From positions 1 through 41,312 of the forward strand of contig PHCF01000026.1 in the NCBI GenBank assembly GCA_002842145.1: DNA of 41,312 nt, in the 5' to 3' direction. The position numbers and the translations under genes were made by a program. This DNA comes from Betaproteobacteria bacterium HGW-Betaproteobacteria-6. GTDB lineage: Bacteria > Pseudomonadota > Gammaproteobacteria > Burkholderiales > Rhodocyclaceae. The notes under the pieces are model-generated. The model saw only the letters and a list, made by a program, of their open reading frames with translations, was not told the origin of the DNA and ran no database searches. The first letter of the stretch is position 1. The number at the start of each line of letters is the position of its first letter. Below are positions 9,162 through 22,949 of this stretch, in pieces.

Positions 9162-9194
9162 CTTTCAAATAAGGCTTGCGTTGGTGGATTGTTT

Positions 9195-9230
9195 TTCTTA
9201 TGATTAAAACGAACGTATGAATCATAAGAA
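9195..9230. promoter_or_regulatory. palindromic operator upstream of the TetR gene
   Basis: A perfect 11-bp inverted repeat, TTCTTATGATT (9195-9205) and AATCATAAGAA (9220-9230), encloses AAAACGAACGTATG. The 15-mer AAACGAACGTATGAA (9207-9221) differs by one base from the element at 18020-18034 and by two from that at 16507-16521. The site ends 15 bp before the TetR start codon, so autoregulation is the simplest reading (inference). Confidence 0.75.
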
Positions 9231-9245
9231 AACAGAGGCCACCCC

Positions 9246-9905
9246 ATGGAAGTCCGTACTGTCGATACTCGTCAACGCATCCTCGATGCCGGTGAGCGCC
9301 TGTTCATGGCGCACGGCTACGAGGGTACTTCGATGCGCCAGATTACCGGTGAAGCCGGGGTCAATCTGGCGGCGGTGAATTACCACTTCGGCTCGAAGGA
9401 GTCGTTGATGCAGGAGGTTTTTCGCCGTCGGCTCGACTGGCTCAACGAGGAGCGCATGCGGGTGCTCGATGAACTCGAAGCCGAGGCGGATGGCCAGCCG
9501 GTCAAGCCATCGGCCATCGTCGATGCTTTTTTTGGCACCTTGTTGCGCATGGCCGGCGACGAGAACCGTGGCGGCATGACCTTCCTGCGCCTGCTGGGCA
9601 GGACGCTGACCGAGCCTTCGGAATTTATCCGCGCCTTTCTGGCCCATGAATACCAGGTGGTAATGGACCGCTACAAGGAGGCGCTGTTCAGGGCGTTGCC
9701 CGAGGTGCCCAAGGCCGAGATCGTCTGGCGCTTTCATTTCATGCTCGGCGCCACCTCCTACGCCATTGCCGGCACCGATGCCCTGCGTCTGGTCACCGAC
9801 TGGCAGATCGAAGCCGAGGATTCGACCGATCGCCTGGACCGTCTGGTGCCACGTCTGATGTCCTTCCTGCTTGGCGGCCTGCGCGCCCCGTTACCCCAGT
9901 TTTGA
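9246..9905 (+). CDS. TetR-family regulator, PsrA/FadP-like
   Basis: This 219-residue DNA-binding repressor has its helix-turn-helix at residues about 9-55: RQRILDAGERLFMAHGYEG, then TSMRQITGEAGVNLAAVNYHFGSKESL. That recognition-helix segment closely resembles Pseudomonas PsrA, a repressor of beta-oxidation genes that responds to long-chain acyl ligands. The rest is the ligand-binding helical domain. Its own promoter region carries a large palindrome, and the same 15-bp core recurs before fadL and the HAD-ECH operon. It is followed 63 bp later by fadE and may be cotranscribed with it. Likely role: derepress the local fatty-acid genes when acyl-CoA is present. The PsrA/FadP assignment is by resemblance and context. 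Confidence 0.92.
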   Translation: MEVRTVDTRQRILDAGERLFMAHGYEGTSMRQITGEAGVNLAAVNYHFGSKESLMQEVFRRRLDWLNEERMRVLDELEAEADGQPVKPSAIVDAFFGTLLRMAGDENRGGMTFLRLLGRTLTEPSEFIRAFLAHEYQVVMDRYKEALFRALPEVPKAEIVWRFHFMLGATSYAIAGTDALRLVTDWQIEAEDSTDRLDRLVPRLMSFLLGGLRAPLPQF

Positions 9906-9911
9906 TGAATG

Positions 9912-9948
9912 CCACGGTCAACGGCAAAAAATGACCAAAATTAAAAAG
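9912..9948 (+). repeat. degenerate copy of CGGTCAACCGG element
   Basis: CCACGGTCAACGGCAAAAAA, followed by TGACCAAAATTAAAAAG, resembles the repeat copies at 21825-21860, 27816-27859, 17971-18002 and 32794-32830. It sits in the TetR-fadE gap. The match is weaker than between the other copies. Confidence 0.4.
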
Positions 9949-9968
9949 ACATAAAAGGAGATAACAGC

Positions 9969-12323
9969 ATGTTCGACAACTTGATCCCTCTGCTCGGGGC
10001 GTTAGCCCTGGTGGCTTTGGCCGGGTTGATCCTGATTCGGCCCTTGCGTCGAAGCATCATCACCCGGCCCATTTTTTCCACCTATCGCAAGGTGCTGCCG
10101 CAGATGTCGGATACGGAGCGCGATGCACTCGAAGCCGGCACCGTCTGGTGGGAGGGTGAATTGTTCCGCGGTCAGCCGGACTGGCAGAAACTGCACGCCT
10201 ACCCGCAGCCGAAACTGACGCCGGCCGAGCAGTCCTTTCTCGACAACGAATGCGAGGAAGCCTGCCGTCTGGTCGATGACTGGAAAGTGACGCACGAGCT
10301 CTATGACCTGCCGACCGAAGCCTGGCGCTATATCAAGGACAAGGGCTTCCTCGGCATGATCATCCCGAAGAAATACGGCGGCCTCGAGTTCTCGGCCTAC
10401 GCCCATTCGCAGGTGGTGACCAAGCTGTCGACGCGCTCCTCGGCGCTGTCGGTTTCCGTCATGGTGCCCAACTCGCTCGGCCCGGCTGAACTGCTGCTGC
10501 ACTACGGTACCGAAGAGCAGAAAAACCATTACCTGCCGCGTCTCGCCAAGGGCATTGAAGTGCCGGCCTTCGCGCTGACCAGCCCGTGGGCCGGTTCCGA
10601 CGCGGCGTCGATTCCCGATGCCGGCGTCGTCTGCAAGGGGATGTGGCAAGGCAAGGAAGTGCTTGGCATGCGCGTCAGCTGGGACAAGCGCTACATCACG
10701 CTGGCCCCGGTGTGCACGGTGTTCGGCCTGGCTTTCCACCTCTACGACCCGGATGGCCTGCTCGGCGACAAGAAGCATATCGGCATTACTTGCGCGCTGG
10801 TCCCTTACGACGTGCCCGGCGTCGATACCGGCCGCCGTCATTTCCCGCTCAACGCCATGTTCATGAACGGCCCGACGCGTGGCAAGGACGTTTTCATGCC
10901 GCTCGACTTCATCATCGGTGGGCCGAAGATGGCGGGGCAGGGCTGGCGCATGCTGATGGAATGCCTGGCCGCCGGCCGTTCGATTTCGCTGCCGTCGTCG
11001 AACACCGGCATGGCGCAGATGACGGCCCGCGCCGTCGGTGGCTATGCCCGTGTGCGCAGCCAGTTCAAGATGGCCGTTGGCAAGTTCGAGGGCGTCGAGG
11101 AAGCGCTGACCCGTATCGGCGCCTACACCTACATGATGGATGCCGTGCGCAAGATGACGGCCGGCGCTGTCGATCTCGGCGAGAAGCCCTCGGTCGTTTC
11201 GGCCATCGCCAAGTACCACGTCACCGAACGCGCCCGTCAGGTGGTCAATGACGGCATGGATGTCATCGGCGGCAAGGGCATCTGTCTTGGCCCATCGAAT
11301 TTCCTCGGCCGCGCCTACGAGCAGGTGCCGATCGGCATCACGGTCGAAGGCGCCAATATCCTGACCCGTTCGCTGATCATCTTCGGTCAGGGCGCCATCC
11401 GCTGCCACCCGTTCCTGCTGCCGGAAATGCAGGCGGCGCAGAACCCGGATCAGAAGCAGGGCCTGGTCGATTTCGACAAGGCGCTGTTCGGGCATATCGG
11501 CTTCACCATCAAGAACGGTTTCCGTGCCCTGTGGCTGGGCATGACCGGCTCGCATTTCGCTACGGTCAACGTCGATACGGCACCGGAAATGCGCCGTTAC
11601 TACCAGCAACTGACGCGCTTCTCGGCCGCCTTTGCCTTCATGGCCGACATCTCGCTGCTCGTCCTCGGCGGCAGCGTCAAGCGTCGGGAAAAGCTGTCGG
11701 CCCGGCTTGGCGACATCCTGGCCCAGATGTACCTGATTTCCTGCACGCTCAAGCGTTACGAAGAAGAAGGCCGTCAGGCTGAAGATGCGCCGCTCGCCCA
11801 CTGGGCGATCTGGGACGCCATGTACAAGGCGCAGCAGGCTTTCGATGGCGTCATCGCCAACTTCCCGGTGCGCTTCATCGCTGCCTTCCTGCACCGCTCG
11901 ATCTTCCCGTGGGGCCATCCCTACGTCGTGCCATCGGACGATGTCGGCCATCAGGTAGCCAAGGCCCTGATCGCCCCGTCCGCCACCCGCGACCGGCTGA
12001 CCGCAGAATGCTATCTGCCGCTGGTCGAGAACGAGCCGGTCGGCGCCATCGAGCTGGCCTTGCTGGCCACCCTGGAGGCCGAAGCCATCGAAGCGAAAAT
12101 CCGTGCTGCCGAGAAGGATGGGCGGTTCGACAACAATCCGCTGGCCAATGTGCGTGACATCGCCATCGTCGCCTTCGAGACCGGGGTGATTACTGCCGCC
12201 GAGTACGAGGTCATGAAGCGGCGCAACCACCTGCGCGACATCGTCGTCCATGTCGATGACTTCCCGTTTGACTACGGTGTCGCCACGGCCAACAAGCCGG
12301 CCGAATGCCGGATGGCTGCCTAA
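9969..12323 (+). CDS. fadE: FadE-type acyl-CoA dehydrogenase
   Basis: This 784-residue flavoenzyme catalyses the first beta-oxidation step, acyl-CoA to trans-2-enoyl-CoA. The length is close to E. coli FadE (814). Residues about 5-23 form a hydrophobic N-terminal segment (LIPLLGALALVALAGLILI), typical of membrane-associated FadE. The dehydrogenase core includes LTSPWAGSDAASIPDAG, the FAD/substrate stretch, and GMDVIGGKGICLGPSNFLGR before TVEGANILTRSLIIFGQGA. The C-terminal FadE-specific domain follows to the end. The ribosome binding site is AAAAGGAGA. It leads a tight unit with the thiolase (12-bp gap), DegV (1 bp) and FadJ-like protein (8 bp). No copy of the AAACGAACG operator lies directly before it, so transcription probably starts before the TetR gene. 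Confidence 0.95.
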   Translation: MFDNLIPLLGALALVALAGLILIRPLRRSIITRPIFSTYRKVLPQMSDTERDALEAGTVWWEGELFRGQPDWQKLHAYPQPKLTPAEQSFLDNECEEACRLVDDWKVTHELYDLPTEAWRYIKDKGFLGMIIPKKYGGLEFSAYAHSQVVTKLSTRSSALSVSVMVPNSLGPAELLLHYGTEEQKNHYLPRLAKGIEVPAFALTSPWAGSDAASIPDAGVVCKGMWQGKEVLGMRVSWDKRYITLAPVCTVFGLAFHLYDPDGLLGDKKHIGITCALVPYDVPGVDTGRRHFPLNAMFMNGPTRGKDVFMPLDFIIGGPKMAGQGWRMLMECLAAGRSISLPSSNTGMAQMTARAVGGYARVRSQFKMAVGKFEGVEEALTRIGAYTYMMDAVRKMTAGAVDLGEKPSVVSAIAKYHVTERARQVVNDGMDVIGGKGICLGPSNFLGRAYEQVPIGITVEGANILTRSLIIFGQGAIRCHPFLLPEMQAAQNPDQKQGLVDFDKALFGHIGFTIKNGFRALWLGMTGSHFATVNVDTAPEMRRYYQQLTRFSAAFAFMADISLLVLGGSVKRREKLSARLGDILAQMYLISCTLKRYEEEGRQAEDAPLAHWAIWDAMYKAQQAFDGVIANFPVRFIAAFLHRSIFPWGHPYVVPSDDVGHQVAKALIAPSATRDRLTAECYLPLVENEPVGAIELALLATLEAEAIEAKIRAAEKDGRFDNNPLANVRDIAIVAFETGVITAAEYEVMKRRNHLRDIVVHVDDFPFDYGVATANKPAECRMAA

Positions 12324-12335
12324 GGAATCTCCGGC

Positions 12336-13622
12336 ATGAGCAAAACGATTTATGTGGTCGACGGTGCGCGCACGCCCTTTTTAAAGGCCCAAAAGGGGCC
12401 GGGGTCGTTCGCAGCTTCCGACCTCGCTACCCAGGCCGGCCGGGCGCTGCTGTTGCGCCAGCCCTTCGCACCGAGCGACCTCGACGAAGTCATCCTCGGT
12501 TGTGCCGCGCCGTCGCCCGACGAAACCAACATCGGGCGCATGGTCGCGCTGCGTCTCGGTTGCGGGAAGAAGGTGCCGGGGTGGACGGTCATGCGCAACT
12601 GCGCCTCGGGCATGCAGGCCATCGACTCGGCGATTGCCAACATCCAGTGCGGGCGTTCCGAGCTGGTGCTGGCCGGTGGCGTCGATGCGCTGTCACGGGC
12701 GCCGTTGCTCTATACGGACGCCATGGTGCGCTGGTTTGCCGGCATGATGAGCATGCGTACGGTCAACCAGAAAATTGGCCATTTTTTGAAATTACCGGTG
12801 GCCGAATTGCTCAAGCCGGTGATCGGCCTCATGAAGGGCCTGACCGATCCGGTCGTCGGCCTGCTCATGGGCCAGACGGCTGAAAATCTGGCCTGGAAAT
12901 TCGGCATCAACCGCCAGCAGATGGATGAATTTGCCGTCAAAAGCCATCTGAAAGCAATGTCGGCGCGAGCCGCTGGCTACTACGGCGAGATCGTTCCGGT
13001 CGTCGATAGCCAGGGCAAGGTCTACGCCGAAGACGACGGCGTGCGAGCCGATGCCAGCATGGCCGGCATGGCCAAGCTCAAGCCGTTCTTTGACAAGAAA
13101 TACGGCAACATCACGGCGGCCAACAGCTCGCAAATCACCGACGGCGCTGCCTGGGTCATTCTCGCTTCGGAAGAAGCCGTGCAGAAATGGGGCCTCAAGC
13201 CGATCGGCAAGATCGTCGACAGCGAATGGGCCGGCCTCGACCCGGCGCAAATGGGCCTCGGCCCGGTGCATGCAGTGACACCGATCCTGCAACGCCATGG
13301 CATGGGTCTCAACGACGTCGATTACTGGGAACTCAACGAAGCCTTCGCGGCGCAGGTGCTCGGCTGTCAGGCCGCATGGAATTCGGACGAGTACTGCCGT
13401 GAACAGCTCGACCTGCCGGGCGCCTTGGGCAATCTCGACGATGACCGACTCAACGTGGACGGCGGCGCCATCGCCATCGGCCACCCGGTTGGCGCCTCGG
13501 GGGCGCGCATCGTGCTGCATCTGCTCAACGTGCTACGCAGGAACAACGCCAGGCGCGGGATCGCCACCATCTGCATCGGTGGCGGACTCGGCGGTGCGAT
13601 GTTGGTCGAGGCGGTGGACTGA
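12336..13622 (+). CDS. acetyl-CoA C-acyltransferase (thiolase, FadI-like)
   Basis: This 428-residue thiolase cleaves 3-ketoacyl-CoA with CoA to release acetyl-CoA. The nucleophilic cysteine is C89 in RNCASGMQAID. The second-half catalytic residues are H383 in GGAIAIGHPVGASG and C413 in CIGGGLGG. WELNEAFAAQVL is the conserved NEAFA motif. The length matches the FadI subgroup (about 436), longer than FadA-type thiolases (about 390-400). That fits a partnership with the FadJ-like gene two positions downstream. A DegV gene follows after one base, so translation is likely coupled. The function call is firm; chain-length preference is unknown. Confidence 0.94.
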   Translation: MSKTIYVVDGARTPFLKAQKGPGSFAASDLATQAGRALLLRQPFAPSDLDEVILGCAAPSPDETNIGRMVALRLGCGKKVPGWTVMRNCASGMQAIDSAIANIQCGRSELVLAGGVDALSRAPLLYTDAMVRWFAGMMSMRTVNQKIGHFLKLPVAELLKPVIGLMKGLTDPVVGLLMGQTAENLAWKFGINRQQMDEFAVKSHLKAMSARAAGYYGEIVPVVDSQGKVYAEDDGVRADASMAGMAKLKPFFDKKYGNITAANSSQITDGAAWVILASEEAVQKWGLKPIGKIVDSEWAGLDPAQMGLGPVHAVTPILQRHGMGLNDVDYWELNEAFAAQVLGCQAAWNSDEYCREQLDLPGALGNLDDDRLNVDGGAIAIGHPVGASGARIVLHLLNVLRRNNARRGIATICIGGGLGGAMLVEAVD

Positions 13623-13623
13623 G

Positions 13624-14568
13624 ATGCGGATCGGAATTGTCGTCGATTCGGCCTGCGACCTGCCGCGCGAGTTTCTCGACGCGCACGATGTGCTGGTCAT
13701 GCCGATCAGTCTGCGCGTTGGCGACCAACTGATCGAGGACCGGCGCGACCCGCAGGAAACGCAGGCCTTCTACGCCCGGCATCTCGACCGTAAAAGCGAA
13801 GATTTTGCCGAATCGATTCCCTATTCGGTGACCCAGATCGAGCAACTCTTTCTCGACCGTCTGGTGCTCGATTACGACTACGTCTTCTGCCTCACCATCA
13901 CCAGCACGCGCAGCCCGATTTTCGATCATGCCATGCAGGCCTCGCGCGCCATACTGACCAAGTACAAGGCCATCCGCCGGGCCGCCGGTTTGTCCGAACG
14001 TTTCGGCCTGGCCGTGCTCTCCACCCGCAACCTGTTTACCGGTCAGGCTGTCCCGGTTGCCGAAGCCGTTCGCCTGATTCGCGAGGGAGGCGCACCGAGC
14101 GCCATCGGCGAACGGCTGCGTCACCTCATCGAAAATACCCACACCTACCTGGTGCCGGCCGATCTTTTTCACATCTACAAGCGGGCTTCCAAGAAAGGTG
14201 ACACCAGCCTTGGCTGGAGCGCCTACACGCTGGGCTCGTGGCTCGACGTCAAGCCCGTCCTGCATTGCCATCGCGACGTGACGAGCACGGTCGACAAGGT
14301 GCGTGGCTTTGCCGCCGGCGTTGAGCAATTGTTCGATCGGGCCGTGCGCCGGGTGGGCGAAGGCCTCGACGCGCCGGTGATTTGCCTGAGTTACGGCGGC
14401 GAGCCGGCCGCCGTGCGTGCCCTGCCAGGCTATGCCCGGTTGGCCAGCACGGCTAAGGCGCACGGCGTCGACCTGCTGGTTTCGCCAATGAGCAAGACGG
14501 CGGCTGTCAATGTCGGGCCGGGTGCCCTGTCGCTGGCCTTTGCCGCCAGCGCTCACCGTCCGCAATAA
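13624..14568 (+). CDS. DegV family fatty-acid-binding protein
   Basis: This 314-residue protein starts MRIGIVVDSACDLP, the standard DegV N-terminus. It contains FCLTITSTRSPIFDHA, matching the conserved (L)TISSxLSGTY ligand-loop region in altered form. VLSTRNLFTGQAV corresponds to the DSxxxSxGxG region, where key serines are replaced. The C-terminal lobe has VCLSYGGEP and MSKTAAVNVGPGALSLAF, the usual IGPVIGTHxGPGA-type end. DegV/FakB proteins hold a fatty acid, and in Firmicutes FakB presents it to the kinase FakA. No FakA is present here. The gene lies between thiolase and FadJ-like genes with 1-bp and 8-bp gaps, so a carrier role in beta-oxidation is a reasonable inference. The start is ATG 13624, directly after the thiolase stop. 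Confidence 0.9.
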   Translation: MRIGIVVDSACDLPREFLDAHDVLVMPISLRVGDQLIEDRRDPQETQAFYARHLDRKSEDFAESIPYSVTQIEQLFLDRLVLDYDYVFCLTITSTRSPIFDHAMQASRAILTKYKAIRRAAGLSERFGLAVLSTRNLFTGQAVPVAEAVRLIREGGAPSAIGERLRHLIENTHTYLVPADLFHIYKRASKKGDTSLGWSAYTLGSWLDVKPVLHCHRDVTSTVDKVRGFAAGVEQLFDRAVRRVGEGLDAPVICLSYGGEPAAVRALPGYARLASTAKAHGVDLLVSPMSKTAAVNVGPGALSLAFAASAHRPQ

Positions 14569-14576
14569 GGAAGACT

Positions 14577-16490
14577 ATGGAACTGAATCTGCAACACTGG
14601 CGATTGACGCGGGATGATCAAGGCATCGCCGTCGCAACGCTGGACAGGGCCGGGGAGGCGACCAACGCATTGTCGGCGGCGCTGATGGCCGAATTGGCTC
14701 ACATTCTCGATAGCCTCGACAAGGCGCCGCCGACGGGCCTGATCTTGCGCTCTGGCAAGGAGGCCGGCTTCATCGCCGGCGCCGACATCGGAGAGTTCTC
14801 CCAGCTCGATACGCCGGAGAAGGGGCGGGAACTGGTGACCCGCGGCTGGAACCTGTTCAACCGCCTGGCTGCCGTGCCCTACCCGACGCTGGCCCTGGTC
14901 CGTGGTCATTGCCTAGGGGGCGGACTGGAACTGGCCTTGGCCTGCCGCTACCTGCTGGCAGTAGACGAAGCCGGCACCAAAATGGGCTTGCCTGAAGTCA
15001 TGCTCGGCATCTTCCCCGGTTGGGGCGGCATGCTGCGTTTGCCAAAACGCGTCGGCCCGGCGGCAGCGCTCGACATGATGCTGACCGGCAAGACCGTCGA
15101 CGCCAAGCGCGCCAAGAAAATGGGTCTGGCCGACGATTGCGTGCCGCCACGGGTCATGGAAATGGCTGCCCGCCAACTGCTGCTCTCCGGCCTGTCGCGC
15201 CGGCCGCTGCCCTTCATGCAGCGCCTGCTGGGCGGCCCGCTCAAATCGGTTGTCGCCAACGGCGCCCGCAAGCAGGTGGCGAAAAAGGCGCGGCCGGAAC
15301 ACTATCCCGCACCCTACGCCATCATCGACCTGTGGGAAAAGTACGACGGCAACGCGCTGGCCGCGCCGGAGATCATCGACCGCATCATCACCTCGCCGAC
15401 CGCGCGCAATCTGGTCCGCGTCTTTCACCTGCAGGAACGCCTCAAGGGCTTCGGCAAGGCATCCGACTTCACGGCCAAACGCGTTCACGTCATCGGCGCT
15501 GGCGTCATGGGCGGCGACATTGCCGCCTGGTGCGCCCTGCGCGGCATGACCGTGACGCTGCAGGACCAGACACTGGAACGCATCGCCCCGGCTCTCAAGC
15601 GCGCCCACGCCTTGTTCACCAAGCGTCTGCGCGAGCCGCTCAAAATCCGCGATGCTTTCGACCGCCTGCTTCCCGACCCGAACGGTGATGGCGTTGCGCA
15701 CGCCGATGTCGTCATCGAAGCCATCTTCGAGAACGTCGAGGCCAAGCACGCCTTGCTCAAGTCGCTCGAACCGCGCATGAAGGCGGGCGCCGTGCTGGCC
15801 ACCAACACCTCCAGCCTCAAGCTCGAGGACCTGCGTACGGTGCTGCAGCAACCACAGCGCCTGGTCGGCATCCACTTTTTCAACCCGGTGGCCATGATGC
15901 CGCTGGTCGAAGTCGTCGAAGCCGACCTGGCCGATCCGGCCGCCGTGCAAGCCGCCTGCGCCTTCGTAAAGCAGATCGACAAGCTGCCGCTGCCGGTCAA
16001 GAGCGAGCCGGGCTTCCTGGTCAACGCCGTGCTGGCGCCCTACATGCTGGCTGCCATGCGTGTGGTCGACGAGGGCATTTCGCCGGAAACGGTCGACGAA
16101 GCCATGCTTGCTTTCGGCATGCCGATGGGGCCGATTGAACTGGTCGATACCGTCGGTCTCGACATCGCCATGGCCGCCGGCAAGCAACTGGCAGGCGGGG
16201 CCGAGGCGCCGCGCTGCCTGATCGAGCGCGTCGAAAAAGGCCAACTGGGCAAGAAGAGCGGCCAGGGCTTCTACGACTGGTCGTCCGGCAAGGCTGCCAA
16301 GGCCGCTGCCGGCAGCGTACCGGCCGGTCTGGCCGAAAGACTGGTCGCGCCGCTTATCAGCCGGGTCGAAAAACTCGTCGCCGACGGCGTTGTCGGCGAT
16401 GCCGCCCTGGCTGATGCTGGCGTAATATTTGGCACCGGATTTGCCCCGTTTACCGGCGGGCCAATCCACTTTCGGCAAGGACAGACGTAG
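14577..16490 (+). CDS. enoyl-CoA hydratase/3-hydroxyacyl-CoA dehydrogenase fusion (FadJ/FadB-like alpha subunit)
   Basis: This 637-residue bifunctional enzyme performs the hydration and NAD-dependent oxidation steps. The N-terminal crotonase domain has the oxyanion stretch RGHCLGGGLELALACRY. Its E118 and E140 (LPEVMLGIFPGWGG) match the two catalytic glutamates of E. coli FadB (E119, E139). The dehydrogenase half has the NAD motif GAGVMGGDIA at 307-316, then GIHFFNPVAMMPLVEVV. The end is GTGFAPFTGGP, matching the GTGFPPFRGG close of FadB. At 637 residues it is about 75-90 shorter than FadJ/FadB (714-729), mostly in the C-terminal helical part. It closes the fadE-thiolase-degV unit. A 133-bp gap with operators separates it from fadL. 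Confidence 0.93.
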   Translation: MELNLQHWRLTRDDQGIAVATLDRAGEATNALSAALMAELAHILDSLDKAPPTGLILRSGKEAGFIAGADIGEFSQLDTPEKGRELVTRGWNLFNRLAAVPYPTLALVRGHCLGGGLELALACRYLLAVDEAGTKMGLPEVMLGIFPGWGGMLRLPKRVGPAAALDMMLTGKTVDAKRAKKMGLADDCVPPRVMEMAARQLLLSGLSRRPLPFMQRLLGGPLKSVVANGARKQVAKKARPEHYPAPYAIIDLWEKYDGNALAAPEIIDRIITSPTARNLVRVFHLQERLKGFGKASDFTAKRVHVIGAGVMGGDIAAWCALRGMTVTLQDQTLERIAPALKRAHALFTKRLREPLKIRDAFDRLLPDPNGDGVAHADVVIEAIFENVEAKHALLKSLEPRMKAGAVLATNTSSLKLEDLRTVLQQPQRLVGIHFFNPVAMMPLVEVVEADLADPAAVQAACAFVKQIDKLPLPVKSEPGFLVNAVLAPYMLAAMRVVDEGISPETVDEAMLAFGMPMGPIELVDTVGLDIAMAAGKQLAGGAEAPRCLIERVEKGQLGKKSGQGFYDWSSGKAAKAAAGSVPAGLAERLVAPLISRVEKLVADGVVGDAALADAGVIFGTGFAPFTGGPIHFRQGQT

Positions 16491-16506
16491 CAGTGTTGTT
16501 TATTTC

Positions 16507-16545
16507 CAACGAACGTTTGAAATAGTGCAATTCAAACAATGTTTC
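16507..16545. promoter_or_regulatory. candidate TetR operators upstream of fadL
   Basis: CAACGAACGTTTGAA (16507-16521) matches the reverse complement of the element at 18020-18034 at 14 of 15 bases. Ten bases on, CAAACAATGTTTC (16533-16545) has the CAAAC-N3-GTTTC layout of the published Pseudomonas PsrA box. Two sites 80-115 bp before the fadL start suggest repression by the TetR protein encoded at 9246. No convincing -35/-10 pair was identified here. Confidence 0.65.
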
Positions 16546-16623
16546 ACTCGCTTGTTTGGGATTTAATCGTAGTGGCAGTCAAGGGAGAATTCCTCCCAAT
16601 AAAACAAAACAGGAGACAAATCT

Positions 16624-17919
16624 ATGAACCAAACCAAGCTGCGCCTTATTCCGGCGCTTGTTGCCATCGCTTTTTCGGGCAGTGCTGCGGCCGCTGGCTT
16701 CCAGTTGCTGGAGCAAAATGCCAGCGGTCTCGGTAATTCCTATGCCGGCTCGGCTGCCGTGGCCGACAACGCCAGTACGATCTTCTTCAACCCGGCCGGT
16801 ATGACGCAGTTGCAGGACCGCGAAGTATCCGCCGGTTTGGCGATCATCGATACCCAGTACCAGTTCACCAACACGTCGTCGTCGACGGGTGTGCTTTCCG
16901 GCAATAGCGATGGCGGTGCCACCGGTTTTGTGCCGAACGCTTACCTGTCGTGGCGGCTGAGCAAGGATATCTATGTCGGCCTGGGTATCGGTGCACCGTT
17001 CGGCCTGATGAGCAAGTACGACAACCCGTGGTATGGCGCCGCCCAATCAGTCAAGTTCGACATCCAGACGATCAATATCAACCCGTCGATCGCATGGCGG
17101 GCAAATGAGTGGCTGTCGATCGGCGGCGGCGTGAATTACCAGCAGTTGAAGGCTGAGTATGAGAGGGCACTTACCGTAACCAGCACCGCCGCTGCAGCGA
17201 CGACGGCGACACTCAATCTGGATGGCAGTGCTTGGGGCTGGAATGTCGGTGCGCTGTTTACAATCACGCCGGCAACCAAGCTTGGTTTGTCCTACCGCTC
17301 GACGACCGAGTACGATCTGGATGGCGATTTTGAATTCTCCGGCCCGCTGGCGCAGATTTCCGGCGCGCCGCTGTTCGGTGCGACGGTCAACCGTTCAGCC
17401 AAGGCGTCAATCACGTTGCCCGATACCTGGATCCTGAGTGCGACGCACAAGCTTAATGACCGTGTCGAGCTGCTCGGTGATGTGTCGTGGACTGGTTGGA
17501 GCAGCATTCCCAAGGTCGACGTGATCAATGCGCAGACCACCGGCCTCGGTGCGGTGGACGGGAATATCGCGCAGACGCTCGATACCGATTTCCGTGATAC
17601 GTGGCGTGTTGCCTTTGGTGCAAATTATCAGTTGAACGATGCCTGGAAACTGAAGGCTGGTATCGCCTATGACCAGACGCCGGTTAAGGGGGTAACGACC
17701 CGCCTTGTTTCGCTGCCGGATAACGACCGCACCTGGTTCAGCATCGGTGCCCAGTGGAAGCCGTCGAAGACAACAACGCTTGATCTCGGCGCTGCCTATC
17801 TACTTGTCAAGGATACCGAGATCGATAACAACCAAACATCTGCTGGTCGTGGCCGTGTCACAGGTGAATACGACAACCAGGCATTCCTCATCGGCGCCCA
17901 GTTTTCGATGGCCTTCTGA
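16624..17919 (+). CDS. fadL: FadL/OMPP1-family long-chain fatty acid outer-membrane transporter
   Basis: This 431-residue outer-membrane beta-barrel carries hydrophobic substrates to the periplasm. The signal peptide is MNQTKLRLIPALVAIAFSGS, ending AAAA, with cleavage before GFQLLEQNASGLGNSYAG. That is the conserved start of FadL/TodX proteins, where the N-terminal strand plugs the barrel. SIFFNPAGM-type residues (TIFFNPAGMTQL) are the family signature. The protein ends with an aromatic residue (FSMAF), as expected for BAM recognition. The ribosome binding site is AGGAGACAA. It is monocistronic, with a strong terminator 27 nt after the stop and operators upstream. FadL relatives also move aromatic hydrocarbons; fad genes on both sides make fatty acids the likely cargo. 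Confidence 0.94.
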   Translation: MNQTKLRLIPALVAIAFSGSAAAAGFQLLEQNASGLGNSYAGSAAVADNASTIFFNPAGMTQLQDREVSAGLAIIDTQYQFTNTSSSTGVLSGNSDGGATGFVPNAYLSWRLSKDIYVGLGIGAPFGLMSKYDNPWYGAAQSVKFDIQTININPSIAWRANEWLSIGGGVNYQQLKAEYERALTVTSTAAAATTATLNLDGSAWGWNVGALFTITPATKLGLSYRSTTEYDLDGDFEFSGPLAQISGAPLFGATVNRSAKASITLPDTWILSATHKLNDRVELLGDVSWTGWSSIPKVDVINAQTTGLGAVDGNIAQTLDTDFRDTWRVAFGANYQLNDAWKLKAGIAYDQTPVKGVTTRLVSLPDNDRTWFSIGAQWKPSKTTTLDLGAAYLLVKDTEIDNNQTSAGRGRVTGEYDNQAFLIGAQFSMAF

Positions 17920-17945
17920 TTCTTCATCATTCCTTGCGTACTTTG

Positions 17946-17971
17946 TCCCCGGCCAGTCCGGGGATTTTTTT
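17946..17971 (+). terminator. Rho-independent terminator of fadL
   Basis: TCCCCGG (17946-17952) pairs with CCGGGGA (17958-17964) around a 5-nt loop, followed by seven T. The right edge touches the repeat copy at 17971-18002. Confidence 0.93.
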
Positions 17972-18002
17972 GATTTTGGGCCAAAAAACCGGTTGACCGT
18001 GG
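17971..18002 (-). repeat. copy of CGGTCAACCGG element overlapping a promoter
   Basis: On the minus strand CCACGGTCAACCGGTTTTTT, then GGCCCAAAATCA, matches the repeat copies at 21825-21860 and 27816-27859. The differences lie in the A/T stretch after CCGG. Its TTGACC, read on the plus strand at 17993-17998, is also the -35 box of the HAD-ECH operon. Confidence 0.6.
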
Positions 18003-18020
18003 AAGTCGCTGCTCTATAAT
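17993..18020 (+). promoter_or_regulatory. sigma-70 promoter of the HAD-ECH/thiolase operon
   Basis: A -35 box TTGACC (17993-17998), a 16-bp spacer and a perfect -10 box TATAAT (18015-18020) precede the coding start by 58 bp. A candidate operator begins on the last base of the -10 box. Confidence 0.8.
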
Positions 18021-18034
18021 TCAAACGTTCGTTT
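18020..18034. promoter_or_regulatory. TetR operator over the transcription start
   Basis: TTCAAACGTTCGTTT is the reverse complement of AAACGAACGTTTGAA. The same sequence with one mismatch occurs before the TetR gene (9207-9221) and before fadL (16507-16521). It covers the expected +1 region right after TATAAT, the classic position for steric repression. Confidence 0.75.
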
Positions 18035-18078
18035 TATATTAACGAAGCGCAAAATAAGAGACTTAAAAGGAGATGCAA

Positions 18079-20478
18079 TTGAACAAGTTGATCGTGAAGA
18101 AGGCAGCCGTACTGGGTGCCGGCGTGATGGGAGCGCAGATTGCCGCGCACCTTGCCAACGCCAATGTGCCGGTCGTGCTGTTCGACCTGCCGGCCAAGGA
18201 GGGCGACAAGAACGGTGTCGTTAAGAAGGCGCTCGATGGCCTGAAAAAGCTCGACCCGGCGCCGCTGGCCAGCAAGGGCAAGCTGAAGTTCATCGACGCT
18301 GCCAACTACGACGAACATCTGCCGCTGCTTGCCGAGTGCGATCTGGTCATTGAAGCCATTGCCGAGCGCATGGACTGGAAGAACGACCTCTACGCCAGGA
18401 TTGCGCCGCACCTGGCGCCGAATGCGATCATCGCTTCCAATACCTCCGGCCTGTCGATGAATGCGCTGGCCCAGGGCTTGCCAGAGTCGGTCCGGCCGCG
18501 CTTCTGCGGCATCCACTTTTTCAACCCGCCGCGCTACATGCATCTGGTCGAGATCATCGGCACGCAAAGCACCGATGCCGGCACCCTCGATGCTCTGGAA
18601 ACCTGGCTGACTTCGCGCCTTGGCAAGGGTGTCATTCGCGCCCTCGATACCCCGAACTTCGTGGCCAACCGCATCGGTGTCATGTCGATTCTTGCCGTCA
18701 TGCATCACACCGAAGTCTTCGGTCTCGGTTTCGATGAGGTCGATGCGCTGACCGGCCCGAAGATCGGCCGCCCGAAGAGCGCCACCTATCGCACGGCCGA
18801 CGTCGTCGGCCTCGATACACTCGCCCACGTCGTCAAGACCATGCAGGACACGCTGCCCGGCGACCCGTGGCACAAATACTTCACCAGCCCGGCCTGGTTG
18901 CAGGCCCTGATCGCGCAAGGCGCACTCGGCCAGAAGACGCGTTGCGGCATCTTCCGCAAGCAGGGCAGGGAAATCCAGGTGCTCGACCTCAAGGCGCAGG
19001 ATTACCGCAAGTCGGCCGGCGAAGTGGCCGAGGAAGTGGACACCATCCTGAAAATCAGGAATCCGGCCGAAAAATTTGCCGCGCTGCGCGCCTCGCAACA
19101 TCCGCAAGCCCAATTCCTGTGGGCCATCTTCCGAGACATCTTCCACTACGCTGCCGTGCAGCTTGAAAACGTCGCCGACAACGCCCGCGACCTCGATCTG
19201 GCCATGCGCTGGGGTTTCGGCTGGGCGCAAGGGCCGTTTGAAACCTGGCAGGCAGCTGGCTGGAGCGACATTGCGCAGGCGATTGCCGCCGATATCGCGG
19301 CCGGCAAGAGCATGAGCGCCGCGCCATTGCCGGCCTGGGTGCTGGAAGCCGATCGCACCGGTGTGCATATGGCCTTCGGTTCGTGGTCGGCCCGTGAGCA
19401 GCGCTATATCGATCGTTCGGCCCTGCCGGTCTATCAGCGCCAGCTGTTCCCGGAAACCGTGCTTGGCGAAGGCGCCTCGCGCCCGGAAAAATCCGGCGAA
19501 ACGCTCTATGAGAACGATGGCGTGCGTCTTTGGGTGCTTCCTGCGGTCGACGCCGGAATCGGCATCATTTCCATCAAGTCGAAGATGCATACCATCGGCG
19601 ACGAGGTGCTCGACGGCGTCATCGCCGCCGTCCGTCAGGCGGAAACGACATTGGACGGCGTGGTGCTCTGGCACGAAGCGCCATTCGCCGTTGGCGCAAA
19701 TCTGGCGCAGGTGACGGAAGCCATCGTTGCCGGACAGTTCGATCTGCTGGAGCAGACCGTCGAAAAATTCCAGCGCGCTTCGCAAACGCTCAAGTACGCG
19801 CAAGTCCCGACCGTCGCTGCGGTGCAGGGTATGGCGCTGGGCGGCGGCTGCGAGTTTGTCATGCATGCCGGCAAGCGTGTCATGGCCCTCGAAAGCTATG
19901 TCGGGCTGGTTGAGGCCGGGGTCGGGCTTATCCCGGCCGGCGGCGGCTGCAAGGAGTTTGCCGTGCGCGCTGCTGACTGGGCGGCCCAATCGAACGTGCC
20001 GGGCGAAGTCTTCAATTTCCTGCAACCGGCCTTCATGACCATTGCCATGGCCAAGGTCGCCAAGAGTGCCGTCGAGGCCGTCGATTTCGGTTTTGCCAAG
20101 CCTTCCGACACCATCCTGTTCAATGCCAACGAACTGCTTTTCGTGGCGATCCGCGAAGCGCGGGCCATGGCCGAAGCCGGCTACGCGCCGCCACCCAAGG
20201 CCCGGGCCATTCCGGTCGCCGGCAAGAACGGCATCGCGACTTTCGAGATGATGCTGGTCAACATGAAGGAGGGCGGCATGATTTCCGCCCACGACTACAA
20301 GGTCGCCAAATCGGCCGCCATCGCCCTGTGCGGCGGCGAGGTCGAGACCGGCAGCCTGGTCGATGAAGAATGGCTGATTACCGTCGAGCGTCGACTGTTC
20401 GTCGAACTGCTGAAAACCCCCGAAACCCAGGCCCGGATCAAGCACATGCTGGACACCGGCAAACCGCTTCGCAACTAA
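18079..20478 (+). CDS. 3-hydroxyacyl-CoA dehydrogenase/enoyl-CoA hydratase fusion (HAD first, FadN-like order)
   Basis: This is an 800-residue bifunctional beta-oxidation enzyme. The dehydrogenase is at the N-terminus, with NAD motif GAGVMG at about residues 13-18 and GIHFFNPPRYMHLVEI. The crotonase domain is C-terminal, with AVQGMALGGGCEFVMHAGK and GLVEAGVGLIPAGGGCKE. This order is opposite to the fusion at 14577 and matches Bacillus FadN/YusL. I place the start at TTG 18079: AAAAGGAG (18065-18072) is 6 nt before it, whereas the ATG at 18073 touches the Shine-Dalgarno sequence and would add only two residues. The operon has a TATAAT promoter and an operator over its start. The thiolase follows 18 bp later. 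Confidence 0.94.
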   Translation: MNKLIVKKAAVLGAGVMGAQIAAHLANANVPVVLFDLPAKEGDKNGVVKKALDGLKKLDPAPLASKGKLKFIDAANYDEHLPLLAECDLVIEAIAERMDWKNDLYARIAPHLAPNAIIASNTSGLSMNALAQGLPESVRPRFCGIHFFNPPRYMHLVEIIGTQSTDAGTLDALETWLTSRLGKGVIRALDTPNFVANRIGVMSILAVMHHTEVFGLGFDEVDALTGPKIGRPKSATYRTADVVGLDTLAHVVKTMQDTLPGDPWHKYFTSPAWLQALIAQGALGQKTRCGIFRKQGREIQVLDLKAQDYRKSAGEVAEEVDTILKIRNPAEKFAALRASQHPQAQFLWAIFRDIFHYAAVQLENVADNARDLDLAMRWGFGWAQGPFETWQAAGWSDIAQAIAADIAAGKSMSAAPLPAWVLEADRTGVHMAFGSWSAREQRYIDRSALPVYQRQLFPETVLGEGASRPEKSGETLYENDGVRLWVLPAVDAGIGIISIKSKMHTIGDEVLDGVIAAVRQAETTLDGVVLWHEAPFAVGANLAQVTEAIVAGQFDLLEQTVEKFQRASQTLKYAQVPTVAAVQGMALGGGCEFVMHAGKRVMALESYVGLVEAGVGLIPAGGGCKEFAVRAADWAAQSNVPGEVFNFLQPAFMTIAMAKVAKSAVEAVDFGFAKPSDTILFNANELLFVAIREARAMAEAGYAPPPKARAIPVAGKNGIATFEMMLVNMKEGGMISAHDYKVAKSAAIALCGGEVETGSLVDEEWLITVERRLFVELLKTPETQARIKHMLDTGKPLRN

Positions 20479-20496: not shown

Positions 20497-21696
20497 ATGA
20501 GCAAACAAATTCAAGACGCCTACATCGTCGCCGCCACCCGTCTGCCGGTGGCCAAGAAAAACGGCATGTTCAAGAATGTGCGGCCGGATGACATGCTGGC
20601 CCATGCCATCAAATCGGTTGTCGCCCAGGTGCCCGGTATCGACCCGGCGCTGATCGGCGATGTCATCGTCGGCTGCGCCATGCCGGAAGCCGAGCAGGGC
20701 ATGAACGTGGCTCGCATCGGCCTGTTGCTGGCCGGGCTGCCGATCACCGTGCCGGGTATCACCATCAACCGCTTCTGCTCCTCCGGGGTACAGGCAGTGG
20801 CCGATGCCGCCAACCAGATCCGCCTCGGCCTGGCCGATGTGATGATCGCCGCCGGCACCGAGTCGATGAGCGTCATGCCGCAGATGATGGGCAACAAAAT
20901 GTCGATGAACCCGGCCATTTTCGCCAAGGAGGAAAACCTCGGCATTGCCTACGGTATGGGTCTCACCGCCGAAAAAGTGGCGAACCAGTGGAAGGTCGGC
21001 CGCGAAGCGCAGGATGCTTTCGCCGTCGAGTCGCATCGTCGGGCCTGTGCGGCGATCGCCGCCGGTCACTTCAAGGCGGAAATTTCGCCCTATACCATCC
21101 GCGAAAGCCTGCCCGACCTGGCCTCTGGCGAGATTCGCATCCGTGAGCGCATCGTCGATACCGACGAAGGCCCCCGTCCGGATTCGGCTCTCGACAAGCT
21201 GGCCAAACTGAAGCCGGTTTTCCATGCGCGTGGTTCGGTGACGGCAGGCAATTCGTCGCAAATGTCCGATGGGGCCGGCGCCGTGATGCTGGTTTCCGAG
21301 AAGATCCTGCGCGAACACAACCTGACGCCGCTCGCCCGCTTTGCCGGCTATGCCGTCGGTGGCGTGGCGCCGGAGATCATGGGTATCGGCCCGGTCGCGG
21401 CGATTCCGAAAGTGCTGGCGCAGGTCGGCATCACCCAGGATCAGCTGGACTGGATCGAACTCAATGAAGCCTTCGCCGCGCAGTCGATCGCCGTCATGCA
21501 GGAACTCGGTATCGATCCGGGCAAGGTGAACCCGCTCGGTGGCGCCATCGCCCTCGGCCACCCGCTCGGCGCCACCGGCGCCATCCGTATCGCCACCGTC
21601 GCGCATGGTCTCAAGCGCACCGGCGGCAAGTACGGCATGGTGACGATGTGCATCGGGACGGGCATGGGCGCCGCCGGCATCATTGAGCGGATTTAA
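20497..21696 (+). CDS. fadA: acetyl-CoA C-acyltransferase (thiolase, FadA-like)
   Basis: This 399-residue thiolase carries out the last beta-oxidation step and partners with the HAD-ECH enzyme 18 bp upstream. The catalytic residues are C94 in NRFCSSGVQAVADA, H355 in GGAIALGHPLGATG and C385 in MCIGTGMGAAG. IELNEAFAAQSIAV carries the NEAFA motif. The length fits the FadA group. The ribosome binding site is weak (GAGGAAAAATC). The gene ends 11 bp before a small frame and a repeat insertion that separate it from the DUF4442 gene. Confidence 0.95.
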   Translation: MSKQIQDAYIVAATRLPVAKKNGMFKNVRPDDMLAHAIKSVVAQVPGIDPALIGDVIVGCAMPEAEQGMNVARIGLLLAGLPITVPGITINRFCSSGVQAVADAANQIRLGLADVMIAAGTESMSVMPQMMGNKMSMNPAIFAKEENLGIAYGMGLTAEKVANQWKVGREAQDAFAVESHRRACAAIAAGHFKAEISPYTIRESLPDLASGEIRIRERIVDTDEGPRPDSALDKLAKLKPVFHARGSVTAGNSSQMSDGAGAVMLVSEKILREHNLTPLARFAGYAVGGVAPEIMGIGPVAAIPKVLAQVGITQDQLDWIELNEAFAAQSIAVMQELGIDPGKVNPLGGAIALGHPLGATGAIRIATVAHGLKRTGGKYGMVTMCIGTGMGAAGIIERI

Positions 21697-21707: not shown

Positions 21708-21865
21708 TGAGCAAGCCATCTCCGTCGTTGCGCAGTGCTCGCAAGCTCGCCTACCTTAAGGTATGTCTCGCTTGTTGCGCGCTGGGCGCCTCGGATCTGG
21801 CTCACTCCCGCGAATTTCTGATTCCTGCGGTCAACCGGAAAAAAAGCCCAAAATTGAAATCATGA
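21708..21865 (+). CDS. 52-residue frame over repeat DNA, coupled to the DUF4442 gene (doubtful)
   Basis: The frame starts ATG 21708 with a good Shine-Dalgarno sequence (AAGGAAATC) and ends TGA 21863-21865, overlapping the DUF4442 ATG as ATGA. The product (MSKPSPSLRSARKLAYLKV...) is basic and resembles no family I know. Its DNA has a 12-bp palindrome TACCTTAAGGTA (21752-21763), flanking CAAGC/GCTTG arms, and ends in the CGGTCAACCGG repeat. It may be a translated leader keeping ribosomes moving across inserted repeat DNA, or chance. Confidence 0.3.
21825..21860 (+). repeat. CGGTCAACCGG element, copy just before the DUF4442 start
   Basis: CTGCGGTCAACCGGAAAAAA, then AGCCCAAAATTGAAAT, is nearly identical to the minus-strand copy at 27816-27859. 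The similarity extends a few bases beyond both ends. It ends one base before the DUF4442 start codon. The upstream 120 bp with the TACCTTAAGGTA palindrome may belong to the same larger mobile or repeated unit. Confidence 0.7.
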
Positions 21866-22374
21866 AACCCGCCTGGCTGGCCAAACTTTCTCCGACCTGG
21901 CGGGCGCGCATGGTGCGCCTGGGCTTCAATTTTCATCCGGCCTTTCGCGGTACCGGCGGGCGGGTGACGCATGTGGCGAAGGATTTACGCCACATCCGGA
22001 TCTCCCTGCCGCTGAACTGGAAGACGAAAAATATCGTCGGTTCGCTCTACGGTGGTTCGTTGTTCGCAATCACCGACGGAGCGCATCCGATGATGTTGAT
22101 GGCGGCGCTCGGCGACGGCTACATCGTCTGGGACAAGGCGGCAAGCATTCGTTACCGCAAGCCCGGGTTTTCAACGCTGCATGCCGATTTTGTGTTGACT
22201 GACGGGGAAGTGGCGGAAATCAGGGCCGAACTGGCCAGAAGTCCGGAGCTTGAGCGGACTTATCTGGTCGAACTCAAAGACAAGCAAGGCACCGTGCATA
22301 CCGTCGTCGAACGCACGGTTTACATCGCCGATAAACATTACTACCGACAGAAGAGCGGTGGAGGAGACAAATGA
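21862..22374 (+). CDS. DUF4442 hotdog-fold thioesterase-like protein
   Basis: This 170-residue protein has motifs of the DUF4442 branch of hotdog acyl-CoA thioesterase-like proteins: a GGSLFAITDGAHPMML region and YIVWDKAASIRYRKPG. The start at ATG 21862 gives MKPAWLAKL, the usual family N-terminus; an upstream in-frame extension would translate repeat DNA. It is soluble with no signal peptide. The next gene overlaps by 4 bp (ATGA). Its place between fadA and fadD suggests release or proofreading of acyl-CoA, or acyl binding. This is inference, since the family is not well characterised. Confidence 0.85.
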   Translation: MKPAWLAKLSPTWRARMVRLGFNFHPAFRGTGGRVTHVAKDLRHIRISLPLNWKTKNIVGSLYGGSLFAITDGAHPMMLMAALGDGYIVWDKAASIRYRKPGFSTLHADFVLTDGEVAEIRAELARSPELERTYLVELKDKQGTVHTVVERTVYIADKHYYRQKSGGGDK

Positions 22375-22949
22375 TGATTACATCGACAAGCGTCCGGAAG
22401 GCTGCGCTGATTGCCGCATTGCTGGCGGTTCCCGGACTGCATGCCGCGGAAGTGGCGGGGGTCAGGGTGGACGACACCGTTCGCGTCGGCAGCAGCGACC
22501 TGGTGCTCAACGGCGCCGGCCTGCGCAGCAAATTCTTTTTCAAGGTTTATGTCGGCGCGCTCTATGTTAGCCAGAAGGCAACATCGTCGACGGCGGTCTA
22601 CGACAGCCCGCAACCGCGCCGCATGGTCATGCGCATGATGCGCGACCTCGATTCCGATTCGCTGAACTCGGCGCTTGATGATGGCTTGAAGAACAATCAC
22701 AGCCCGGCCGAACTGGCTGAGCTGAAAACGCAGGCCGACCAGCTGGGGGCCATCATGAAGGGGATTGGAAAAGCCCGCGAAGGGGATACGATTGGCATTG
22801 ATTTCTCCGGCGACGGGATCGCTGTCAGCCTGAACGGGGAAATGCGCGGCAAGGTGGCCGGTGCGGGCTTCGCAAAAGCGCTGCTCAAGGTCTGGCTCGG
22901 TGAGAAGCCGGTGGACGCCTCGTTGAAGAAGGCGCTGCTCGGTTCCTAG
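22371..22949 (+). CDS. periplasmic chalcone-isomerase-fold protein
   Basis: This 192-residue protein has a signal peptide ([20 protein letters not shown]). The mature part begins [41 protein letters not shown], the hallmark of bacterial chalcone-isomerase-like proteins (Chalcone_3 type). It continues with the [13 protein letters not shown] and [17 protein letters not shown] segments. In plants this fold also occurs in plastid fatty-acid-binding proteins, and true chalcone isomerase evolved from that group. The gene overlaps DUF4442 by 4 bp and is 25 bp before fadD. A periplasmic fatty-acid carrier between FadL and FadD is therefore an attractive inference, not shown by sequence. Confidence 0.88.

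Follow-up and report, generated by a model that had tools for sequence, protein, structure and literature searches.

The window analysed here is a stretch of 41,312 nucleotides (contig PHCF01000026.1) from Betaproteobacteria bacterium HGW-Betaproteobacteria-6, a member of the Azonexus/Dechloromonas group, and it carries genes for the uptake and β-oxidation of fatty acids beside the gene for a TetR-family regulator. The most probable reading, to which we assign a probability of roughly 0.86, is that these genes make up a small and mostly local regulon of the PsrA type. The linked regulator, a presumed repressor, likely binds an 18-base-pair (bp) dyad at the psrA-fadE, fadL and fadB-fadA promoters, and would thereby hold uptake and β-oxidation off until long-chain fatty acids arrive. 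The support computed directly comes from the operator boxes themselves, which at psrA and fadB keep a constant register with the -10 hexamer and which are conserved in the genus while the DNA around them diverges, and from the regulator, which is homologous to PsrA of P. aeruginosa. In addition, boxes of this type precede the majority of the PsrA-like regulator genes that were examined elsewhere in the Betaproteobacteria and Gammaproteobacteria.

A first-pass annotation of this DNA had described the same 15-bp operator at three promoters. The 15-mer in question, AAACGAACGTWTGAA, is indeed found at 9207-9221 (plus strand, no mismatch), 16507-16521 (plus strand, one mismatch) and 18020-18034 (minus strand, no mismatch), but it is part of a larger unit, the 18-bp dyad TTCAAAC-N4-GTTTGAA, and the proposed size of 15 bp has to be given up. 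When up to three mismatches are allowed the 15-mer has four matches in the window against 1.2 expected, and at fadL two of the four lie on opposite strands and overlap; because 4 of 100 shuffles reach the same count, this loose test is weak by itself. In what follows, boxes are scored as matches out of the 14 specified positions of the dyad. At 12/14 or better the full dyad, TTCAAACNNNNGTTTGAA, has three sites in the window where 0.077 are expected, a number reached in none of 300 simulated windows (first-order Markov), and at 11/14 no N4 dyad appears in the window beyond these three. The CAAAC-N3-GTTTC box that had been noticed in the fadL region was located as well, so that the three promoters stand with an amended count: they hold four boxes between them, and one more promoter lies outside the window. 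The psrA site is centred in a perfect inverted repeat, as had been claimed, although its arms measure 13 bp rather than 11; across the genus only the inner few bases of this repeat are kept. A reading of the repeat as an RNA hairpin or terminator was dropped, since the left arm lies ahead of the predicted start of transcription and the scan listed no terminator there.

The regulator combines the domains TetR_N and TetR_C_30 and aligns over residues 7-214 of its 219 with PDB entry 2fbq (E 8e-35), whose entry text reads 'probable transcriptional regulator' and which we take to be P. aeruginosa PsrA. The segment GVNLAAVNYHFGSK, which presumably contains the recognition helix, is identical in the two proteins, in agreement with the PsrA-like recognition region proposed earlier. 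FadR of the Enterobacteria belongs to the GntR family, and here a TetR_N domain is found instead of a GntR-type DNA-binding domain. A PsrA-type operator, C/GAAAC-N2-4-GTTTG/C, precedes the regulator gene; it is of the N4 type and scores 12/14, one half being imperfect (GTATG). In a phylogenetic tree the regulator groups with Azonexus and Dechloromonas rows, inside the PsrA-like proteins of Betaproteobacteria. The 2fbq sequence falls among gammaproteobacterial rows, and most gamma and beta rows lie apart, the basal forks being open.

The position of the boxes within their promoters is what would be expected of operators for a repressor at two of the three places. The psrA box begins on the last base of the TATGAT hexamer and the fadB box on the last base of TATAAT, and both would cover the predicted start points; for fadB-fadA, a site over the +1 had already been proposed, and the predicted start at about 18027 falls inside 18020-18037. 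A sigma-70 scan listed the fadB promoter as its only one (one found in the fadB region against 1.1 expected) and did not list that of psrA. Within the psrA promoters of 21 genomes, CTTGC is invariant and the TATGAT columns are mostly kept. The spacing of the fadB promoter and the register of its box recur unchanged in 19 of the 20 promoters from the genus for which upstream sequence is available, while G020 keeps the box with a spacer of 14.

Conservation was followed through 25 genomes of the same genus, including the source genome (G000). A protein search found the regulator in 21 of them, and all 21 carry the box core AAAC[GA]AACGTATGAA upstream of it; in a 22nd, G009, the psrA promoter and box are present and a contig end cuts the gene off. 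The regulator gene is itself cut by a contig end in G007; in G020 (L030, L160), which keeps the boxes, it has one in-frame TAG. At fadB, 21 loci were examined and the box TTCA[AT]ACGTTCGTTT is present in all 20 assessable promoters; the remaining locus, of G009, is cut by a contig end, and on another contig of that genome this box appears after fadL. Mean column identity over 21 psrA promoters is 0.97 in the box against 0.70 and 0.49 in the 30-bp flanks, and over 20 fadB promoters 0.96 against 0.69 and 0.61. The exact sequence TTCAWACGNNYGTTT occurs 62 times in the 25 genomes against five times for the reversed pattern; by their coordinates 57 of these matches lie at psrA, fadL, fadB or, in G011, fadE, and the other five, located elsewhere, are at the control level. 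In G011 (L141, G011:C25:65186-71557) psrA and fadE lie about 5.7 kb apart, with other sequence between them, and here fadE is preceded by a TATGATTCAAACGAACGTATGAAT promoter of its own with a PsrA box. Paralogous fadL genes occupy 21 places, on different contigs or at a long distance; loci were available for 14 of these places, and not one of the 14 has a box scoring 10/14. This pattern of box conservation supports the earlier prediction of autoregulation and of joint control of uptake and oxidation, both of which remain predicted from the DNA.

In the source genome as a whole, the full dyad with up to two mismatches is found at 14 places (28 rows, counting both strands) against four for the reversed control. 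Four of these places are upstream of fatty-acid genes, nine are inside open frames and one is between frames. Three are the sites in the window, and the fourth lies 52 bp before a gene for an AMP-binding (PF00501), acyl-CoA synthetase-like protein on contig C97. The core of this last box, AAACGAACGT[TC]AGA, recurs in 19 of the 23 same-genus genomes that have the gene (13 of 14 in the first set of genomes and 6 of 9 in the new), and in these 19 promoters mean column identity is 0.96 in the box against 0.70 and 0.68 in the flanks. The synthetase-like promoter therefore likely belongs to the regulon, judging by its box. It is the only further promoter that is convincing genome-wide, which is why the regulon is regarded as small and mostly local; with it included, uptake, activation and oxidation would switch together. 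The synthetase-like gene itself (L149 587-1603) appears frameshifted in the assembly, and is followed on the same contig by what looks by eye like ABC-transporter coding sequence. Its operator has an imperfect half, mostly GTTAGAC, which differs from the GTATG half of the psrA operator, invariant in 21/21 genomes; the two imperfect halves look as if affinities had been tuned.

Other matches in the source genome were set aside: C86:10183, with one mismatch, falls where a gene for a small secreted protein has its probable ribosome-binding site and first codons; C121:8507 is inside a doubtful frame of 134 codons; C8:28384 is inside a frame near its end, about 130 bp before the first ATG of the next; and C49:97 is upstream of a frame without a tie to fatty acids. 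A PsrA-like box also lies between the gene for an ETF-ubiquinone oxidoreductase (ETF-QO, assigned by Pfam) and a divergent thioesterase-like gene in G008 (L100 1501-1515, G008:C10). G006 has a match there too, although no regulator was found in that genome, and the dyad runs over a start codon; for these reasons the box was not counted as a target. It stays a lead because an ETF-QO gene, PA2953, is among the reported targets of PsrA in P. aeruginosa (PMC13104628; this and the other articles are cited from excerpts).

The fadL promoter is the most variable of the set. The locus is present in 20 same-genus genomes; no fadL was found between fadJ and fadB in G008, and the fadL neighbourhood of G017 is not shown because it lies on a short contig of its own. 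A box scoring at least 12/14 is found in 17 of the 20 promoters, and two more reach 11/14. In the usual form the box is TTCAAACGNNNGTTTGAG, or near it, and stands directly before a TTTAAT-like hexamer. In the source genome and in G002, G003 and G012 this proximal box is without its left half, and there are instead two boxes upstream, TTCCAACG(AA/TT)CGTTTGAA and the N3 form; at the position of the latter, G002, G003 and G012 score 12-13/14. In G007 the upstream and the proximal box are both present. The upstream box overlaps a different dyad, TTG-N8-CAA, possibly an activator site, which occurs in 18 of the 20 promoters (G010 and G019 are without the exact form), 66-67 bp before the TTTAAT-like hexamer in 17 and 74 bp before it in G024. 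If transcription starts about 7 bp past the hexamer, which in the window puts the predicted fadL start at about 16574, this dyad is centred near -71.5, a position near which dimeric activators often bind. It is tempting to suggest, though we hold it to be rather doubtful, that in the clade of the source genome the fadL operator has shifted by 39 bp, away from the promoter itself and upstream to a dyad of activator type with strict spacing, with G007 as an intermediate, and that PsrA would there repress uptake by displacing an activator instead of blocking RNA polymerase. Repression by activator displacement is in any case a guess. The wider form TGTTG-N8-CAACA occurs at nine places in the source genome against one for the reversed control; the idea that it marks a separate regulon was set aside, as by eye these places are mostly inside frames.

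Beyond the genus, the comparison used 80 named PsrA-like loci, the best of 565 confirmed loci, some of them from the same-genus genomes again. They were chosen by the recognition segment of the regulator, and the conservation of that segment among them is for this reason not used as evidence. In 71 of the 80 a box scoring at least 11/14 (N2-4 allowed) lies within 200 bp upstream of the regulator, a score that pieces taken at random from these loci reach in 0-16% of draws; when the spacer is restricted to N4, 62 of the 80 have a box of at least 12/14 within that distance. Many loci of the Rhodocyclales type have the regulator followed by fadE, thiolase and fadJ, and often by fadL and fadB. Three Burkholderia-group loci (L179, L180, L184) have TTCAAAT-N4-ATTTGAA before the regulator, a shifted operator. 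In three loci of Achromobacter (L161, L165, L167), with regulators 65-67% identical, the gene order is the same as far as the loci reach; in the tree these regulators are nested among rows of the Rhodocyclales type, and transfer is possible. Two Zoogloea loci (L166 18332-18952, L169 8390-9007) have a second PsrA-like regulator, of 41% identity, between fadL and fadB.

A number of results weigh against a PsrA-type regulon as proposed here. The regulator scores 158.5 bits with NF053516, the NCBIfam equivalog model for Vibrio-type PsrA, and as this is under the cut-off of 300 it is not filed as that equivalog; nor does the tree show the window clade as sister to Pseudomonas PsrA. The genome scan that the first-pass annotation had put forward as a check gives an excess at up to two mismatches, with four places before fatty-acid genes, but none at a looser cut-off: up to three mismatches of TTCAAACGNNCGTTTGAA, with a fixed CG-NN-CG core, give 24 rows in the source genome against 32 for the control. 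The fadL promoter of G024 has no box, and the fadL boxes of the source clade lie upstream of the -10 region, where occlusion of the polymerase is harder to picture. Four of the 23 genomes (G006, G017, G022 and G024) lack the synthetase box or have it in degenerate form; of these G017, G022 and G024 keep the regulator, while G023 keeps the box although no regulator was found there; a joint loss of regulator and box is accordingly no clean test or proof of their coupling. In G006, which is listed as 100% complete, neither the regulator nor FadL nor FadB was found. None of three order-level homologues of the synthetase-like gene has the box. Nine of the 80 named loci have no box at 11/14 before the regulator, four fadL and eight fadB loci at the order level have none at 10/14, and in the distant named loci there is no fadL or fadB box at 13/14, a cut-off at which two of the window boxes would also fail.

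These results can be set beside three other explanations. The boxes might be real operators whose main binder is another TetR-type regulator, FadP-like or unlinked, with the linked PsrA-like protein in a secondary role. FadP is reported to control β-oxidation in Burkholderiales (PMC5343134, PMC12543098), and G023 keeps the synthetase box although no regulator was found in it; this genome, however, is only 74% complete, the sequence of the box agrees with the PsrA site known from the literature (PMC13104628), and the conservation of boxes before PsrA-like regulators, both in the named loci at 11/14 and in all 21 genomes at this regulator, makes another main binder improbable. It is a shade less probable again that the regulator binds the boxes but at certain promoters serves as an activator, like pseudomonad PsrA at rpoS. 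PsrA has been described both as activator and as repressor (PMC13104628), and the upstream placing of the fadL boxes in the source clade would suit an activator, but at psrA and fadB the box overlaps both the -10 hexamer and the predicted +1, the usual place for a repressor. Finally, the threefold repeat might be an effect of chance or of promoter composition, without regulatory meaning. The loose 15-mer scan, only mildly above chance, is compatible with this, but the simulations with the full dyad and the conservation of the boxes across 20 or more genomes leave it barely credible.

If the window does hold a PsrA-type regulon, the repressor would bind TTCAAAC-N4-GTTTGAA dyads and block RNA polymerase at the psrA-fadE and fadB-fadA start points, which would amount to negative autoregulation of the psrA-fadE operon. 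A free long-chain fatty acid would release the repressor, and the genes of uptake and β-oxidation would come on. The long-chain acyl-CoA that the first-pass annotation had named as ligand finds no support here: PMC13104628 names free long-chain fatty acids, oleic acid among them, as PsrA ligands, with oleic acid releasing the P. aeruginosa protein, and has acyl-CoA as a signal still to be settled.

Both the box and the kind of control are known, and what is new, and well supported, is the case in this betaproteobacterial lineage. The published sites of PsrA are C/GAAACN2-4GTTTG/C and TTCAAACN4GTTTGAA (PMC13104628). With PsrA of Pseudomonas (targets fadBA5 and PA0506 in P. aeruginosa, rpoS in pseudomonads) the system shares near-full-length homology of the regulator, as seen with 2fbq, the operator, a box before the regulator's own gene and targets in β-oxidation; it differs in that fadE here follows psrA immediately, with fadL and fadB-fadA close by, and in that only four promoters were found. 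PsrA of Shewanella and other Gammaproteobacteria is likewise a predicted repressor of fatty-acid degradation (PMC3223726, PMC5343134). Regulons of the Shewanella type extend to the tricarboxylic acid cycle and the glyoxylate shunt, genes of which were not recognised among the 14 places in the source genome, no search having been aimed at them. Ralstonia and Burkholderia are Betaproteobacteria with PsrA orthologues too, but there PsrA is reported to have moved to the control of fatty-acid biosynthesis, with FadP as the predicted regulator of degradation (PMC5343134), whereas here PsrA-type boxes lie on degradation genes. SMLT2053 of Stenotrophomonas (PMC13104628) and TfmR of Xanthomonas (PMC6637906) are also TetR repressors of fatty-acid degradation that long-chain fatty acids release, with different reported targets, smlt0264-0268 for the former and mhpC/fadE and fadH for the latter. 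No PsrA regulon in Rhodocyclales was found among the titles listed in searches of an open-access library, though an entry for the lineage may exist in a regulon database.

Table 1. Predicted regulatory elements and genes of the psrA-fadE, fadL and fadB-fadA region (positions in the window).
Feature	Position	Strand	Details
Predicted psrA promoter	9176-9204	+	TTGCGT-17-TATGAT; start point ~9211, within operator 1
Perfect inverted repeat	9193-9232		13-bp arms 9193-9205 and 9220-9232; concentric with operator 1, centre 9212.5; left arm contains -10 hexamer
Operator 1 (psrA-fadE promoter)	9204-9221		TTAAAACGAACGTATGAA; 12/14
TetR-family regulator, PsrA-like	9246-9905	+	219 residues; PF00440, PF17939
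fadE, acyl-CoA dehydrogenase	9969-12323	+	NF007000, 1184 bits; PF09317
Acetyl-CoA acyltransferase (thiolase)	12336-13622	+	NF006030, 757 bits
DegV-family protein, start uncertain	13630-14568	+	PF02645, 166 bits, from residue 112 of open reading frame 13297-14568
FadJ-like enoyl-CoA hydratase / 3-hydroxyacyl-CoA dehydrogenase	14577-16490	+	
Dyad TGTTG-N8-CAACG (inner TTG-N8-CAA)	16494-16511		Possible activator site; overlapped by operator 2a
Operator 2a (fadL)	16504-16521		TTCCAACGAACGTTTGAA; 13/14
Operator 2b (fadL)	16531-16547		N3 variant TTCAAAC-N3-GTTTCAC, TTCAAACAATGTTTCAC; 12/14
Decayed remnant of proximal fadL box	16543-16560		TTCACTCGCTTGTTTGGG; aligns with the TTCAAACGNNNGTTTGAG-like boxes that most of the genus has immediately ahead of -10
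fadL, outer-membrane fatty-acid transporter family	16624-17919	+	PF03349, 341 bits; NF007988, 203 bits, under its cut-off of 585
Intrinsic-terminator-like hairpin after fadL	17945-17965	+	Separates fadL from the fadB unit
Predicted fadB promoter	17993-18020	+	TTGACC-16-TATAAT, 11/12; start point ~18027, within operator 3
Operator 3 (fadB)	18020-18037		TTCAAACGTTCGTTTTAT; 12/14
3-Hydroxyacyl-CoA dehydrogenase / enoyl-CoA hydratase, HAD-ECH order (fadB)	18073-20478	+	
Acetyl-CoA acyltransferase, FadA-like	20497-21696	+	NF006553, 718 bits

The genes and sites of the region are collected in Table 1. The β-oxidation operon includes a gene of the DegV family, members of which bind fatty acids; it was matched in just three of the 80 named loci, at 68-84% identity. 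Terminator-like hairpins are little enriched in the region, with four found against 2.4 expected. Downstream of fadB-fadA, at 21763-22949, are genes for DUF4442 and chalcone-isomerase-like proteins.

With this regulon, an environmental lineage of Betaproteobacteria would join those in which PsrA governs fatty-acid degradation. In Ralstonia, Burkholderia and Comamonadaceae it is FadP that has been described for degradation, in the excerpted accounts, while this lineage appears to keep PsrA in that role. Comprising four promoters, the regulon is compact, conserved and easily testable, and the turnover of the operator at fadL can be followed across sequenced relatives.

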